Shown: positions 5,261-57,461 of the stretch, one piece after another
Layout: every line of letters begins with the position of its first letter
Position numbering within the stretch: position 1 is the first letter of the stretch
Assembly: GCF_003015185.1 (NCBI RefSeq)
Contig: NZ_CP027860.1
Location: 5,177,001-5,241,000 of the forward strand
DNA from: Ahniella affigens
Lineage (GTDB): Bacteria; Pseudomonadota; Gammaproteobacteria; Xanthomonadales; Ahniellaceae
DNA length: 64,000 nucleotides
Direction of reading: 5' to 3'
Position numbers and translations under genes: made by a program
The notes under the pieces: generated by a model
The model's database searches: none
What the model was told of the DNA's origin: nothing
The model's input: the letters and a program-made list of their open reading frames with translations, nothing else

Positions 5261-5770
5261 ATGACTGAAGACAGCATTCATCTGCAGGAGAAGCTCGAGG
5301 CGGTGTTCGGCCAGCCCGAGCAGATTCTCGGCAACAAGACCGGCGCACTGACGCTCCGGTTTCCGAATCGACACGTAGACGTGGTGGAGGTCATTCGCCA
5401 GACCGGCGCGAAGGTCCTGTCGTCAGGCATGACACCAACACGGGTGGGCGGCCCGGCCATCGTGCCGAATGTCGTGGCGCGGCTCGGTGCCGTAACACTG
5501 ATAGTGAAAGGCCGAGTGGACCAGGACAGCCTCAAGGGCTTGGACGTGATCTTGGCCGAGCCGAATCTGATTGGCTCGGCCAATGCCCAGGCAATCTTTG
5601 CGTTTCTGCTGGACACGATCGAGTCAATGCCGGATCCGGAGGAAGCGTTTCTGGGACTGATCTACCACGTGCTCGACACCAAGTTCGAAGAATCGGCGCA
5701 GTCGGGTCGCGCGTTGCTGGGGCGCATGCTGAGCGGCATGGGTCAGTATCTGGAGCAACGCGCGGATTGA
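5261..5770 (+). CDS. Conserved-looking hypothetical protein next to PilT-like ATPase
   Basis: 169 residues, acidic, soluble, with no signal peptide or membrane segment and no motif I recognise. The middle holds alternating hydrophobic strands (VARLGAVTLIVKG) and the end is helical. Codon pattern and reading direction match the upstream ATPase, 54 bp away, and the two starts share a very similar upstream sequence, so it is probably an operon partner. A cytoplasmic accessory role in the same transfer or pilus process is the only inference I would make. Confidence 0.6.
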   Translation: MTEDSIHLQEKLEAVFGQPEQILGNKTGALTLRFPNRHVDVVEVIRQTGAKVLSSGMTPTRVGGPAIVPNVVARLGAVTLIVKGRVDQDSLKGLDVILAEPNLIGSANAQAIFAFLLDTIESMPDPEEAFLGLIYHVLDTKFEESAQSGRALLGRMLSGMGQYLEQRAD

Positions 5771-5951
5771 CGGGCGCCTGAGTCTTGGGATCTTGATCTG
5801 CGCACGCGCCAGCGGGAATCTCACGCCAAAGCAATCCCGGAGGTAACGAGCGGCGGCGCAAGCATTCTGGACGCCCCGTTGGTGCGCTAAATCGTGCCGC
5901 AAACGGTAGGCGGCAACGTGCGGTGCTGACGGCGACGCGATGGCGGAAGTG

Positions 5952-6353
5952 GCCCGCTCCCACTCGCGTGGGAGTTTTGATCGCACCGAAGGTGCGCTGA
6001 TTCGCGCATCAGACTGTCGGCGACGATGGGTGATTCTTACAACGGCACCGTGTGGCAAGTAGCCCTCTCCCCAGCCCTCTCCCACTCGCGTGGGAGAGGG
6101 AGTCGGCTCCCTGCCCCGCTAGGGAGGGTCTGAATAAGTCCATCCTGGACTTTCAGACCCGCACTGAGTCCGGCACGTGTCCGGACTCAGTGCACCAGAA
6201 TCAAGCACTTGCGTGCTTGATTCTGGGCGGGCCATCCATGGCCCGCATCGCCTCTGAACTTGTTCAGAGGCTCCCTAGCGCGAGGGACGGCTGGGAGGGG
6301 GTTACTTGAGATCAGAATCTTCCCCGCTCACAAGTCTATTGGGTCGCAAGCAC
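5952..6353. repeat. Composite dispersed repeat, interrupted copy
   Basis: This gene-free stretch is the reverse-complement counterpart of the repeat block at 50651-51118. Shared blocks include GGTGCGCTGATTCGCGCATCA, GGCAAGTAGCCCTCTCC, CTCCCACTCGCGTGGGAG and the outer end TATTGGGTCGCAAG. The copy is split by the five-hairpin element at 6119-6278. The rest of 5771-6425 shows no convincing gene. Confidence 0.7.
6119..6278 (+). mobile_element. Five-hairpin element, copy 1 (MITE-like)
   Basis: The 160 bp element is bounded by near-perfect terminal inverted repeats (CTAGGGAGGGTCTGAATAAG and the complement of CTTGTTCAGAGGCTCCCTAG). It is almost completely tiled by five hairpins: H1 6126-6160, H2 6161-6193, H3 6195-6226, H4 6227-6246 and H5 6251-6270. 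H1 contains a second nested inverted repeat (GTCCA/TGGAC). It has no coding capacity. It sits inside another repeat, which indicates insertion. Other copies are at 19048 and 57279, with a relative at 45085. Confidence 0.75.
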
Positions 6354-6425
6354 AACGTGTTTTGGCGTGTTTGATGGGTGGGATATAGACGCCCTCAATC
6401 GCAACGTGTCGCGCCATCGGGCTCA

Positions 6426-7271
6426 TCAGGCTGCCTGCAGTGCGGGCAATGGTCCCCGAAAGCGCTTGCGGGCAATGAGGGATCTTAGACTCAGCGCCTG
6501 ATCTTCAGTGAGCCTGCCAATCTGGCGATGCTGCCGGATCGTGTCTTGCAACCAGTCGTGCTGGAACTTGATCGATGGGCTGACACGGCCGTCCATGATC
6601 AATGCCTGCAGGCTGTCGAAGTCGTGTTTGGAGAAGCGAATATCGGGCGCGACCGCCACCATGACGGCGGTCGTTCGCTTTGGCAATTGCGTGCACCAAT
6701 CAGCGCGATGGCGGCCAAGGCGCATCAGGCGAAGGAGGTCGTTAGCACTGCATGCCGATGACGAGCCGAGACGTGGCAGCGCGATCACGCCGTCGGGAAG
6801 GCTTGGTGTCGTCGCCAGCGGCAACAACGGGTCGTCGCTCAGATTGGCGTTCGCGACCGTCTCGGGCAAGTGCCAGCCAGTGTGTCGCGCCACCAGTTCG
6901 CAGAACAGCGGCGACACGATTTCGCCGTCGCGGAGCAATCGGGCCAGCGTTTTCAAGCCGAGTCCGTTGTGCGCATGGCACGCGGCTTTGGCGCTGCCAT
7001 AGCGCGCGACGTGTGCGCGCAGCCATTGCTGCCGGATTTGGTTGCCCTGGTCATCGGCAAGCAACGCGCCGCTGATTGGGTGTTGCAGCCACTCCGCCGG
7101 AATCTGGAACGACTCGGCAACACAGAGCACATGCCGAAGGGATATTTTGCGCGTGCCCTCGAGCACGTTGTCGGCGACGCGCAGATGAATCCGAGTCAGC
7201 TCCGAGAACCAGGATGCGTGCGGCAGAATCTGGCGGATGAGGCAGTAGTTGTCGTGCAGGATCTTGAGCAT
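6426..7271 (-). CDS. Hypothetical protein, possible FlhD-like regulator
   Basis: About 281 residues, soluble, rich in His, Arg and Leu. The first 65 residues (from MLKILHDNYCLIRQILPHA to ISLRHVLCVAESFQIP) resemble the layout of FlhD, in which HDxNxxYLLLAQ is followed by LTLxQxVKLAexNQ. The rest contains a possible helix-turn-helix-like stretch (SAKAACHAHNGLGLKTLARLL) but no clear family. FlhCD-type activators (SetCD, AcaCD) control SXT/IncC transfer, which would fit the neighbouring transfer operon, but the similarity is weak and unverified. The ATG at 7271 has GAGG 8 bases upstream. It lies downstream of traN on the same strand, separated by about 275 bp holding a repeat. Confidence 0.5.
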   Translation of the reverse strand: MLKILHDNYCLIRQILPHASWFSELTRIHLRVADNVLEGTRKISLRHVLCVAESFQIPAEWLQHPISGALLADDQGNQIRQQWLRAHVARYGSAKAACHAHNGLGLKTLARLLRDGEIVSPLFCELVARHTGWHLPETVANANLSDDPLLPLATTPSLPDGVIALPRLGSSSACSANDLLRLMRLGRHRADWCTQLPKRTTAVMVAVAPDIRFSKHDFDSLQALIMDGRVSPSIKFQHDWLQDTIRQHRQIGRLTEDQALSLRSLIARKRFRGPLPALQAA

Positions 7272-7445
7272 GTTGAGCACCTCGTTGGTGTGCTCATTGT
7301 CAGAATCGCGAAGGCGCCCTTACCCGCGAAATCCACGCGTTTTGTCGGGGATTTGTGCCTGCTGCAAAGGAGTCATTGGTCGTGCGGAGGTGGCACTGCG
7401 TGGGCGATTGCATGGATGGGCATCGCAAAATGCTCCTGGTTCTTA

Positions 7446-11322: not shown

Positions 11323-11486
11323 GACTTGGTCTCGGTTTCCAGCCGTTGCACCACGGTTGAGCGCGGCGCAGTGATGCCGAGCTCGACGCCGAACTCGGTG
11401 ATCCGAAGGATTTTGATCCGGATCTCGGCGTCGTGCTCGGGTTGAATCAGGACCACTTCTTCGAGACGGCGTTTAACGATCAGCAT
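11319..11486 (-). CDS. CsrA-like RNA-binding regulator inside the transfer operon
   Basis: 55 residues. The N-terminal strand MLIVKRR matches the CsrA start MLILTRR, followed by the beta-strand pattern IRIKILRI, FGVELGITAP and a VVQR segment that aligns with the RNA-contact VHR (Arg44 in E. coli CsrA). Length and fold pattern fit CsrA/RsmA, but the sequence is divergent, as with the element-borne Csr paralogs (LvrC/CsrT) of Legionella integrative elements. It is overlapped at both ends: 14 bases with the trbC-traW fusion upstream and ATGA with traU downstream. It probably binds GGA motifs in leaders to tune transfer genes or host mRNAs; the target is unknown. The frame extends upstream to 11624, but only from MLIVKRR onward does it look like a protein. 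Confidence 0.75.
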   Translation of the reverse strand: MLIVKRRLEEVVLIQPEHDAEIRIKILRITEFGVELGITAPRSTVVQRLETETKS

Positions 11487-19047: not shown

Positions 19048-19120
19048 CGGAGGGTCTGAAAATGTCCATCCTGGACTTTCAGACCCGCAACGCGTCCGAA
19101 GTTGTTCAGAGGCTCCTTAG
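19048..19120 (+). mobile_element. Five-hairpin element, copy 2 (internally deleted)
   Basis: Starts ACGGAGGGTCTGAAAATG and ends GTTGTTCAGAGGCTCCTTAG. H1 is intact and the terminal repeat is retained, but H2 to H4 are missing, leaving about 73 bp. It lies between convergent genes, and its last bases supply the TAA stop of the minus-strand pseudokinase gene. Confidence 0.7.
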
Positions 19121-20052
19121 CGCAGCGCCTGCTGCAGACGCTGCCAGACGCGGTCGGACCAGCCGTTGCGGGGGCTTGGACTGCGAATGCGGGTGGTGTA
19201 TTGGCGCAGGTCCAGCGCCATGGCCGCGGCGTCGGGAAAGCGCTCCGACGGCTCCGGCTGCAAGGCTCGCATGCAAATCTGCCACACCGCATTCGGCACC
19301 AACGGTGCACGCTCACGCCATGCTTCGCGCGGCAGACCATCGAATGCCGCGGGGCTTTGCGCGCTGACTGCAGCCAGCAGCAACAAGCCCAAGCCATACA
19401 CGTCGGTTTGCTTGCTAACGCGCGTGCCGATGTCGCGCTGCTCGGGCGCCAGCCACGGCGTGTGTTGCGATGGCCCAGACCAGCCCACGTTGCTGCGGCC
19501 ATGCAGATAACGGCTCGTCCCAACGTCCATCAGGACTGCGTGTTGACGCACGATGCGGACATTGGCTGGTGACAGGCGCAGGTGCAGCAGTCCGTGACGA
19601 TGCAACACTGCAACGGCGTCGATGACCGGCAACAACAGGCGGACGGATTCGTTGACGCTGCGCTCGTCGGCGAGATCGAATTCGAAGAGCGCTGGTGCGA
19701 CCAACTCAGGACTGAGCAAATAGCTTCGGCCCGCATAGGTGCCGGCGCCCTGTACGGGCCAAAGACTCGAGTGCTGCAGCGGCGTCCGGCGCAGATCATA
19801 GAGATCGGCATCGGGTTGATCGAGGAACTGCACCACCATGCGTGCGCCGTTGTCGACCCGGCGCGCCCGATACAACCAACCACGACTGCCTTCGGCCAGC
19901 ACGCCGAGCAGCGTGCATGGTCCGATGCGCTGGCCTTGCAGATTCGGCGCCGAATCGCGACCGTTGGTGCGGTGCGCGTTGGCCTCCAGCGGGCTCGAGT
20001 GAGCGATCACGTCTGAGTCGTCGAATTGGTCTGAGTAGCGTTGCAAATTCAT
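19117..20052 (-). CDS. Ser/Thr kinase-fold protein, probable pseudokinase
   Basis: 311 residues with a eukaryotic-type kinase fold over about residues 40-285. The glycine-loop region is LLGVLAEGSRGWLYRARR, but the usual VAIK lysine is Gln (MVVQFL). The catalytic loop HRDLKPxN reads HLRLSPANV, so both catalytic Asp and Lys are lost. DFG is DVG, and APE is kept in PWLAPEQ. The C-lobe with YGLGLLLLAAVS and a closing Arg-rich region is normal. Hence a pseudokinase, more likely a binding or scaffold protein than an enzyme. No membrane segment. The stop codon falls in the inserted repeat element. The role of the neighbours is unclear. Confidence 0.75.
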   Translation of the reverse strand: MNLQRYSDQFDDSDVIAHSSPLEANAHRTNGRDSAPNLQGQRIGPCTLLGVLAEGSRGWLYRARRVDNGARMVVQFLDQPDADLYDLRRTPLQHSSLWPVQGAGTYAGRSYLLSPELVAPALFEFDLADERSVNESVRLLLPVIDAVAVLHRHGLLHLRLSPANVRIVRQHAVLMDVGTSRYLHGRSNVGWSGPSQHTPWLAPEQRDIGTRVSKQTDVYGLGLLLLAAVSAQSPAAFDGLPREAWRERAPLVPNAVWQICMRALQPEPSERFPDAAAMALDLRQYTTRIRSPSPRNGWSDRVWQRLQQALR

Positions 20053-27951: not shown

Positions 27952-29274
27952 TCAGGAGGCACGCCGTTTGAGTACCGCATAAAAGAAGCCATCCAGCCCC
28001 TGCTCGCCGGGCAGATTCTGGCGTCCAAAGCCGGTGTCGCGCCCGAACCAGTCGGCATCGACCGGGCGCAACCAGGCATCGGCCTGGCGTTCGAGAAAGG
28101 CGGCAACCTGGCCGGCATTTTCTTCCTGGAGCACAGAACAAGTCGCATAGACTAGCCGCCCCCCCGGCGCGAGCAAAGCGAACAGACGATCCAGCAGGCG
28201 CGCTTGCGTCTGTTTCAGTGCCTGGACCTGGCCGGGCTTCCGCAACAGGCGGATATCGGGGTGCCGCCGGATGACGCCTGTCCCGGTGCAGGGCGCATCC
28301 AGCAAAATGCGCTCGAACTGGGTGCCCGGTGCAAATGCTTTGGCCGATCCGGCGTCGGCCTGTAGCCAGTCGATGGTTGCAGTGAACTGCATGCGCTGCA
28401 GATTTTCCTGCATGCGCGAGAGCCGCGCGGCAGACACATCGCATGCCTGCACTTGCGCGAGTGGAATCCCCTGCTCCAGGATATGACTGAGCTTGCCGCC
28501 GGGTGCGGCGCATGCGTCCAGCACCCGTTGACCAGGCTGCAGATCGAGCAGGACCACGGCGAGTTGGGCGGCCCCATCCTGCACCGACACGAGGCCATCC
28601 GGAAAGCCTGGCAACTGCAGCACATCCAAGCTGTCGGCCAGGCACAGCGCATCGGGCAAACCGGGAGCAAGTGCCGCATCGAGCCCCTGCTCCGCCAACT
28701 TGGCGCGGTAGTCGGAAACGTTGGCTCGCTGTCGATTGACGCGCAGCCAAAGCGGTGCCGGCTCGTTGTTGGCCTGCAAAATCGCAGCGGCTTGGTCGGC
28801 GCCCCAGTCGCGGCGCAGGCGCTCGATCAGCCAGGTGGGATGGTTGTAGCGCTCGGCATCGGTGCGCGGCGGCAAGGCCCGCAACTGCGCCAATTCGCGC
28901 TGCGCCCGGCGCAACACGGCATTGCCGAGCCCGGCCAGTCCGGGCTGCTCTAAACCGCGAATGGCGTCGACACTGGCCGAGACCACGGCATGGGCGCCAT
29001 CGATGCCCTGATCGAGGCTGGCCAGGGCCAGCAGCAACACCGACTCGACCGGCGCGGCCGCGTTGGGCAAGGGCCGTTCCAGCAAATCGTGCAACCACCG
29101 CTCATACCGCTCGATGCCGCGCAAACAGGCGTACAGCATCGCCCGGGCCAGCGCGCGGTCGCGGGCGTCGGGCAGGTGACGATCGAGTTTGGGGAGTGCC
29201 TCCAGACTGGTCTCGCGACCTTGGCGCAGACCATCGAGCAATAACGCGAGACGCGCGCGGAGATTCTGGTTCAC
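27952..29274 (-). CDS. rsmB: RsmB, 16S rRNA (cytosine-967-C5) methyltransferase
   Basis: About 440 residues. An N-terminal NusB-like RNA-binding domain (residues about 5-135) precedes the Rossmann methyltransferase with SAM motif [17 protein letters not shown]. Two catalytic cysteines are present, in DAPCTGTGV and [11 protein letters not shown]. The enzyme methylates C967 of 16S rRNA using SAM. It starts with GTG at 29274 overlapping the fmt stop (GTGA), the usual coupling in fmt-rsmB pairs; a longer frame running through fmt was rejected. Confidence 0.95.
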
Positions 29275-45084: not shown

Positions 45085-45250
45085 CTAGCTTATTGACCCG
45101 GCAGGAAATAATCAGCAAGTTCCGGCCGGGTCAAGCGCGCGGGCCACGGATGGCCCGCCCGCGCCAGCACGATGCACTGGCGCGGGTTTCGAACCGGAGC
45201 CGTGCCGGACTCGAAACGAATTGAGTTGAACCGGAAGTTCAACGCAATTC
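45085..45250 (-). mobile_element. Divergent five-hairpin element in a divergent promoter region
   Basis: Five adjacent hairpins on the minus strand: 45218-45250, 45186-45217, 45159-45185, 45139-45158 and 45093-45134. In order and content they parallel H1-H5 of the element at 6119: the H2 segment GAGTCCGGCAC and H4 (GCGGGCCATCC/GTGGCCCGC) are shared, while H1, H3 and H5 have different but self-complementary sequences. The rest of 45251-45480 between the two genes shows no gene. Confidence 0.55.
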
Positions 45251-57278: not shown

Positions 57279-57461
57279 CTAAGAGGGTCTGATTAAGTCC
57301 ATCCTGGACTTTCAGACCCGCACTGAGTCCGGCACTCAAGCCTGCCCCGGCGAAGGCCGGGGTCCGGACTCAGTGCTCCTGAATCAAGCACTGACGTGCT
57401 CGATTTTGGGCGGGCCGTCCATGGGCCGCATCGCCTCTGAACTTGTTCAGAGGCTCCCTAG
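57279..57461 (+). mobile_element. Five-hairpin element, copy 3 (extended H2)
   Basis: Same order as the copy at 6119: H1 with GTCCATCCTGGAC, H2 arms GCACTGAGTCCGG/CCGGACTCAGTGC enclosing an extra GCCCCGGCGAAGGCCGGGG hairpin, a partly decayed H3, a mutated H4 and perfect H5. Ends at CTCCCTAG, 18 bp after the stop of the metalloprotease gene on the minus strand. Confidence 0.75.

Follow-up and report, generated by a model that had tools for sequence, protein, structure and literature searches.

The interior of a MITE is usually regarded as a deletion remnant of its parent IS, and the TwoAYGGAY RNA motif is characterized by two hairpin loops with AYGGAY. The latter motif is named, and its groups are given, in PMC2864571 (this and the other papers with PMC numbers are cited from excerpts). 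A YTAR duplication is given for IS5 in PMC10359306, and REP elements are palindromes of 20-40 bp with a GTAG or CGTC tag (PMC3733652). The high-affinity site of the regulator CsrA is an ANGGAX hexaloop on a stem, and the GGA of a DNA hairpin loop is also cited as CsrA-bound (PMC4005645). The repeat of CsrB reads CAGGA(U/A/C)G, and CsrA is described as bridging 10-63 nt and as possibly disfavoured by very stable stems (PMC7652899).

The element studied here lies in the window (i.e., the whole stretch of 64,000 nucleotides of Ahniella affigens DNA that was analysed) and shares features with several of these systems. Like IS5-family MITEs, it is short and has terminal repeats and YTAR-like duplications in common with a resident IS5-family element, but its interior is not an IS remnant, and it recurs across the order and beyond with ends that differ by lineage. 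With REP/BIME and REPIN sequences, it shares dispersed, mostly intergenic palindromes and a high copy number; however, its terminal repeats and target duplications are shared with an IS5-family element, and we rejected an assignment as a REP element because this is a 152-bp unit with IS ends rather than a tagged palindrome of 20-40 bp. In its hairpin loops, GGA stands in contexts of the ANGGAX and CAGGA(U/A/C)G types, which recalls the CsrA/RsmA-sequestering sRNAs CsrB, RsmZ, RsmW, and RsmV; the element differs from these in being a dispersed mobile repeat with two GGA loops per unit, in showing no predicted promoter at the window copy, and in staying under the Rfam thresholds. The TwoAYGGAY motif also has two GGA hairpin loops but is not among the Rfam matches of the element and its relatives. 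RsmU of Xanthomonas campestris, compared by description alone, is likewise a GGA-bearing, RsmA-sequestering RNA from the same order, but it is an sRNA from an mRNA 3' UTR and is not presented as a repeat in the excerpt of PMC7694677.

The inverted repeats and the sequence at 6119-6278 were as described in the original prediction. The 160-bp unit proposed there does have terminal inverted repeats, the right one being 85% complementary to the left across 26 nt, but the element proper is 152 bp with CTAG outside (Table 1). We interpret this outer CTAG as a target-site duplication because identical 4-bp flanks were found in 25/30 best copies, where they are mostly CTAG, TTAG, and CTAA, and also TTGA, AAAG, ATAG, and CTAT; over all 106 full-ended sites, the two flanks agree exactly at 56, differ by one base at 29, and differ by at least two at 21. 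The predicted fold of 6100-6300 consists of five adjoining hairpins closed by the terminal repeats, as had been claimed, with perfect stems in H2-H5 and a 2-nt bulge in H1. The plus strand of this region folds at -136.7 kcal/mol, compared to -79.4 (sd 5.0) in 200 shuffles (z -11.4), and the minus strand at -135.0 kcal/mol, compared to -76.0 (sd 5.1). We take the GCAA loop of H3 to be of the GNRA type. The element is intergenic, between genes at 5261-5770 (+) and 6426-7280 (-) (positions from our own gene caller, without comparison to an annotation), and the list of open reading frames of at least 150 aa has none over it, so that the claimed lack of coding capacity holds at that size. Just upstream, a second palindrome, CTCCCACTCGCGTGGGAG, occurs in two copies at 5953-5974 and 6079-6100.

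Table 1. Coordinates of the element, its parts, and its copies and relative in the window
Feature	Position	Strand	Remarks
Left target-site duplication, CTAG	6119-6122	.	Same letters as 6275-6278
Five-hairpin MITE, 152 bp	6123-6274	-	Strand is that of the proposed RNA
Left terminal inverted repeat	6123-6141	+	18/19 bases agree with the start of the 1223-bp resident IS
Hairpin H1	6126-6160	-	Minus-strand loop AGGAU inside CAGGAUG
Hairpin H2	6161-6193	-	
Hairpin H3	6195-6226	-	Minus-strand loop GCAA
Hairpin H4	6227-6246	-	Minus-strand loop AUGGAU, C before and G after
Hairpin H5	6250-6271	-	Contains the right end
Right terminal inverted repeat	6256-6274	-	Reads GGAGCCTCTGAACAAGTTC from the right end
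Right target-site duplication, CTAG	6275-6278	.	Same letters as 6119-6122
Copy with internal deletion	19049-19116	-	H1 and right end kept; flanks TTAC / TTAG
Relative with other stems	45139-45249	+	Opposite orientation; loops keep ACGGAU (H4) and CGGAA (H1)
Copy with additional hairpin inside H2	57283-57457	-	Flanks CTAA / CTAG

The ends of the element match those of a resident IS5-family element (NF033581), which is 1223 bp long and bounded by 18-bp inverted repeats (GGAGGGTCTGAACAAGTC). This IS is present in 13 full copies, each 0-1 base different from the first, and its 4-bp flanks are identical in 13/13 of them (12 YTAR and one CTTA). The left end of the MITE agrees with the left end of the IS at 18/19 bases and with its right end at 17/18. 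Beyond 9-base chance matches, the similarity of MITE and IS in this pair (class A) is limited to these end repeats, and an origin of the interior as a remnant of the resident IS was rejected for class A on that ground. From the ends and the kind of duplication shared with the resident IS, the identical flanks, and the many sites, we consider it almost certain that the element is an IS5-type MITE moved by this IS. Searches of plasmid records returned no relatives of the element, and relatives of the resident IS at 60-90% identity.

Copies are numerous in the genome, and the possibility that they occur only in the window was refuted by searches of this genome with both the ends and RNA models. 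With up to 3 mismatches allowed, the end pattern gave 159 matches on one strand and 148 on the other, compared to 0 and 0 for a reversed control; RNA model R1 has at least 150 genome matches; and a profile over the retrieved loci gives at least 124 genome sites with 146 units (matches of at least 60 bits, at places from the best 40, 40, and 150 scored candidates). Called genes contain only 2/124 of these sites, in line with the predicted intergenic placement. Within the window, the copy reported at 19048-19120 has the internal deletion described, with corrected limits of 19049-19116, and a weak match to minus-strand model R2 (see below) at 19055-19163. The copy reported at 57279-57461 has the enlarged H2, through an added hairpin, and its limits were corrected to 57283-57457; the added hairpin is a CCCCGGCGAAGGCCGGGG palindrome, and copies of similar length (~175 bp) are present at other genome sites. 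The relative placed at 45085-45250 is real, being found at 45139-45249 (+) with an E value of 6e-11 by an RNA model built without it, in opposite orientation and with differing stems, and it has at least nine genome matches including itself (best 40 of 107 candidates scored). A weak match to the minus-strand model was also seen at 27977-28088 (-) (E 4e-4).

At 10/124 sites, the H1-H4 module is repeated in tandem, two to five times and usually with one H5 (C1:62659-63318, 213732-214137, 1106044-1106449, and seven more in this genome). The period is 127 bp in those arrays that were read, and half of the ten consist of three units. Another array, with five diverged units at C1:3397633-3398261, lies below the 60-bit cut-off of the site count, and at C1:3273519-3273658 a diverged unit (71% identity) lies ~80 bp from a near-perfect copy (3273740-3273899) on the same strand.

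The layout of the element is found well beyond this genome. In the family, 5/10 genomes have a match, own included (best 40 candidates scored), and with a relative as query, at least 35/299 genomes of the order match, own included (up to 2 candidates scored per genome), many over H2-H4 only; these relatives have the same layout with other outer hairpins. Model R2, which covers H4 to H1 on the minus strand and favours GGA, matches at least 30/151 genomes of the order in 23/64 genera, own included (up to 24 candidates per genome), so the minus-strand layout H5-H4-H3-H2-H1 recurs. In a sample of the class, R2 matches at least 30/274 genomes in 25/222 genera, own included (up to 13 candidates per genome). 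The H2 stems of the class-wide loci are quite different, and since this set was found with a model that favours GGA, it gives no unbiased loop count. Among 40 class loci, drawn from 28 of the 29 further genomes matched in the class search, an exact 4-bp repeat together with inverted ends was found in 19, compared to 90/775 mismatched controls; 11 of the 19 are 150-164 long with a repeat that is YTAR-like or nearly so, and the remaining ones, with odd lengths or repeats, may be due to chance. Two loci (L051 and L054) are one insertion with identical printed flanks in two family genomes, which may reflect either common ancestry or common contigs.

Named genomes were also scanned with a pattern wholly inside H2, which gave at least 118 stretches; it is from these named relatives that the class is taken to be Gammaproteobacteria. 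Among the stretches listed, all those naming a group below Gammaproteobacteria/Proteobacteria belong to Lysobacterales/Xanthomonadales or to families and genera that we take to be placed there (Rhodanobacteraceae, Lysobacteraceae, Rhodanobacter, Dyella, Fulvimonas, Mizugakiibacter, Rehaibacterium, Pseudomarimonas, Aquimonas, Lysobacter, and Xanthomonas). When the H2-pattern records were sorted by eye, at least four end classes were seen, and a search for transposases in the genomes of 10 loci gave 14 transposase loci. The class B partner, in the genome of locus L120, is an IS of 1295 bp with ends CACGCTGTTGAGAAAG and CAGGTTGTTGAGAAG and CTAG on both sides. This IS encodes a transposase of 364 aa (NF033581, 261 bits) that shares 22% identity with the class A enzyme, and the class B ends match the IS, together with a 13-14 base match at 503-516 within it. 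Class B ends lie on both sides of transposase loci L322 and L321 (in L321 with flanks one base apart), and L327 and L331 represent one IS with another, class-A-like end (GGATGCTCTGATCTATT). No IS was found for end classes C and D among the 14 transposase loci of the 10 genomes; the class D motif matches at L318 and L320 are not oriented toward each other as ends would be. In one class C carrier genome, the IS at L327 / L331 is bounded by 20-bp inverted repeats (TAGGGATGCTCTGATCTATT) and encodes an NF033581 transposase that is shortened. From the pattern of differing ends and differing transposases, we infer that the chassis has been transferred from one transposase to another.

Having delimited the element and its relatives, we turn to the interior. 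In an alignment of 24 minus-strand sequences (20 of the 22 one-per-assembly references plus four copies from the own genome), 22/34 pairs change on both sides, in a structure predicted from that same alignment and with H2 near-invariant because it is fixed by the search pattern. The both-side changes amount to 128 cells, compared to a shuffled mean of 34.5 (0/500 shuffles reach 128) and to at most 24 cells when the partner is slid by one to three columns. Strands can be told apart by G-U pairs: among assembly-majority non-Watson-Crick pairs, G-U on the minus versus plus strand stands at 38:14 over H1, H3, H4, and H5 (7:4, 13:2, 7:3, and 11:5, respectively). Counted by cells, the ratios are 15:14 (H1), 51:6 (H3), 9:17 (H4, reversed), and 41:14 (H5), and in the held-out records (see below) 13:11, 26:5, 6:16, and 22:7; the mismatch counts of the first set, like the loop counts made along with them, include every record with an adequate score for that hairpin, not the 65 good records alone. 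The minus strand also folds better in 17/22 assemblies (p 0.002), in 55/68 own copies, and in 24/28 class genomes, although the search model biases this last figure. Common descent makes assemblies, and likewise stem groups, non-independent.

Private mutations in the own genome, read from 68 ungapped full copies out of 146 units, favour neither strand (23:20 for singletons and 42:35 for distinct changes; by cells the ratio is 101:59, owing to a few variants common to several copies), so single insertions look unconstrained as RNA, and selection on single copies as RNA is unsupported. We therefore read the constraint, with kinship uncorrected, as acting on propagating lineages and not on single insertions. 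With this qualification, the covariation, the loops kept on different stems (see below), and the lineage-level strand asymmetry suggest that the interior is probably constrained on the minus strand as RNA, which gives the structured RNA of the original prediction real, albeit indirect, support.

The loops point to a candidate partner. In the first set of 80 loci (L120-L199), 81 exact H2-pattern matches were found, of which 71 were kept and 10 were too close to the locus end; 65/71 kept records have good H1, H3, and H4, and one good record each was taken from 22 of 24 assemblies (L161 is an unconvincing element, and in L132 a wrong hairpin was taken as H1). As the pattern lies in H2, the loop counts are unbiased by the search. 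GGA is present in the H4 loop in 21/22 assemblies and in the H1 loop in 20/22, and in 63/65 and 61/65 of the good records, respectively. In the 21 H4 loops with GGA, the base three positions ahead of it is C in all 21, the base two ahead is A in 19, and the base directly ahead is free (T6 C2 G6 A7); GGA is followed by U in 17 and then by G in 21. By stem group, GGA is the rule in 10/11 groups for H4 and 10/12 for H1, compared to 0/15 for H5 and 0/14 for H3, although the grouping is crude and some groups are a single stem shifted by one or two bases. The held-out set (L200-L237; 38 loci with 40 matches, of which 35 were kept and 30 were good) comes mostly from first-set assemblies and thus represents held-out copies, not new genomes; in its 30 records, GGA is found 23 times in H4 (7/30 have an H4 loop without it), 29 times in H1, and never in H3 or H5. 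In the own genome, mutated cells are 8/408 at the six GGA positions, compared to 166/1632 at other unpaired and 449/8296 at paired positions (permutation p 0.023 versus all positions and <1e-5 versus unpaired ones).

There are thus at least two consensus-type GGA hairpin loops, two per unit and more in tandem arrays. Within a unit, the GGA of H4 and H1 are 96 nt apart, beyond the 63 nt bridging limit in the excerpt of PMC7652899; across units of a tandem array, the distance is 31 nt. No match at gathering score was found in Rfam for the window, and the Rfam families that bind CsrA stayed under their thresholds for the window and relatives alike: one relative matched RsmW with an E value of 0.003 and 36.5 bits at a threshold of 52 (best of 10 matches listed for 20 loci), and relatives reached 15 bits for RsmV at a threshold of 100. 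An L-myc IRES match covering part of the element plus flanking sequence (E 4e-6, under the gathering score) and permissive matches to naRNA4, SprD, sX8, and others were treated as chance or composition. Overall, the loops resemble the CsrA/RsmA site, and CsrA/RsmA is a plausible partner, a proposal that we rate at even odds or somewhat below.

We tentatively propose that the element is a MITE mobilised in trans by the 1223-bp IS5-family element of this genome via their common ends and inserted at YTAR-like sites, and that its interior is an old module, arranged as H5-H4-H3-H2-H1, which propagating lineages have kept as minus-strand nucleic acid, most likely RNA. Transcription entering a copy from outside would yield an RNA that displays GGA in its H4 (ANGGAN) and H1 (AGGAN) loops and that would presumably bind and partly sequester CsrA/RsmA, or be shielded by it; a benefit to the spread or tolerance of the element is a guess. 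This chain as a whole, from IS5-moved MITE through minus-strand RNA module to CsrA/RsmA partner, is built on sequence comparison, and we consider it somewhat more apt to fail than to hold. Weighing against it are the lack of a predicted promoter and of an orientation bias, the private mutations, the reversed H4 ratio by cells, the held-out H4 loops without GGA, the distance between the two GGA of a unit, the very stable stems, and the Rfam scores under threshold. An unlikely but serious alternative is that the element is a plain IS5-type MITE, with hairpins that matter as DNA only (as cruciform or single-stranded forms in replication or transposition) or that are kept perfect by template-switch correction, and with loops that are simply inherited. 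Template switching is able to produce compensated changes without selection. The same transposition evidence (common ends, target duplications, many sites), the private mutations without strand preference, and the lack of a predicted sigma-70-like promoter in 5900-6500 (window copy only) would all suit it, as would the orientation relative to neighbour genes, where no preference was found (relative to the minus strand at the 111 classified sites, the flanking genes are co-directional at 30, opposite at 30, convergent at 32, and divergent at 19, with 11 further sites left unclassified). DNA-level recognition would also accommodate the CsrA-bound DNA hairpin loop cited in the excerpt of PMC4005645. 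On the other hand, the lineage-level asymmetry of 38:14 speaks against a plain MITE, though minus-strand single-stranded DNA could give the same, and so does GGA retained at H1 and H4 on differing stems but not at H3 or H5.

The surroundings of the copies bear on two further explanations. Stabilisation of upstream mRNA has been proposed for REP sequences, and a 3'-UTR element of this kind, kept through host benefit, would agree with sites nearer to gene 3' ends (median 62.5 bp, 124 ends) than to 5' ends (median 193.5 bp, 98 ends) and with the excess of convergent over divergent neighbours; however, proximity to 3' ends is also expected under selection against insertions in genes or promoters, and given the absence of orientation bias, we regard this explanation as quite improbable. 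The bidirectional terminator spread via duplication, which the original prediction had offered beside a MITE and a structured RNA, could draw on the strong hairpins and on the convergent genes that flank 32/111 classified sites, but inspection found no T run 3' of any hairpin of the element, and the single terminator-like site in 5900-6500 (6014-6029) lies outside it, which makes a terminator barely credible. Of that three-way interpretation, the MITE is thus well supported by IS-type ends, target duplications, and more than 100 sites, the RNA is supported indirectly, and the terminator is not. The RNA module may also serve another partner, with AGGA loops as a Shine-Dalgarno-like decoy or as sites of another protein, or with the RNA acting on the transposase or its mRNA. 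Although the RNA-level and loop evidence suits any GGA-loop binder, H4 fits the ANGGAX hexaloop including its free N (PMC4005645, in excerpt) and H1 fits the CsrB repeat (PMC7652899, in excerpt), CsrA being the only binder compared, and we think another partner improbable.

If the GGA loops of the preferred RNA module do bind CsrA/RsmA, a mobile-element family would distribute sites for a global post-transcriptional regulator, which bears on the persistence of repeats and on the buffering of the Csr/Rsm network. A broader and more speculative reading, which we doubt more than we believe, is a class-wide MITE superfamily whose common part is the five-hairpin RNA chassis and not the ends, with terminal hairpins exchanged between IS5-family transposases and a mobile CsrA/RsmA sink multiplied in tandem arrays. 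The conserved part here is the interior and the variable part the ends, and if the superfamily reading is true, transposons would spread global-regulator binding sites through gammaproteobacterial genomes. In the open-licence literature that was searched, we found no paper on a MITE with CsrA-type loops, and PMC3733652, PMC4383904, and PMC5955585 had no bearing on one. As for the protein, the own genome has three CsrA-family matches over the cut-off. A small CsrA-family gene is located in the window at 11337-11486 (-), with a gene for a TrbC-type conjugative transfer protein on one side and one for TraU on the other, and a further match lies on the second contig (C2:146851-146997).
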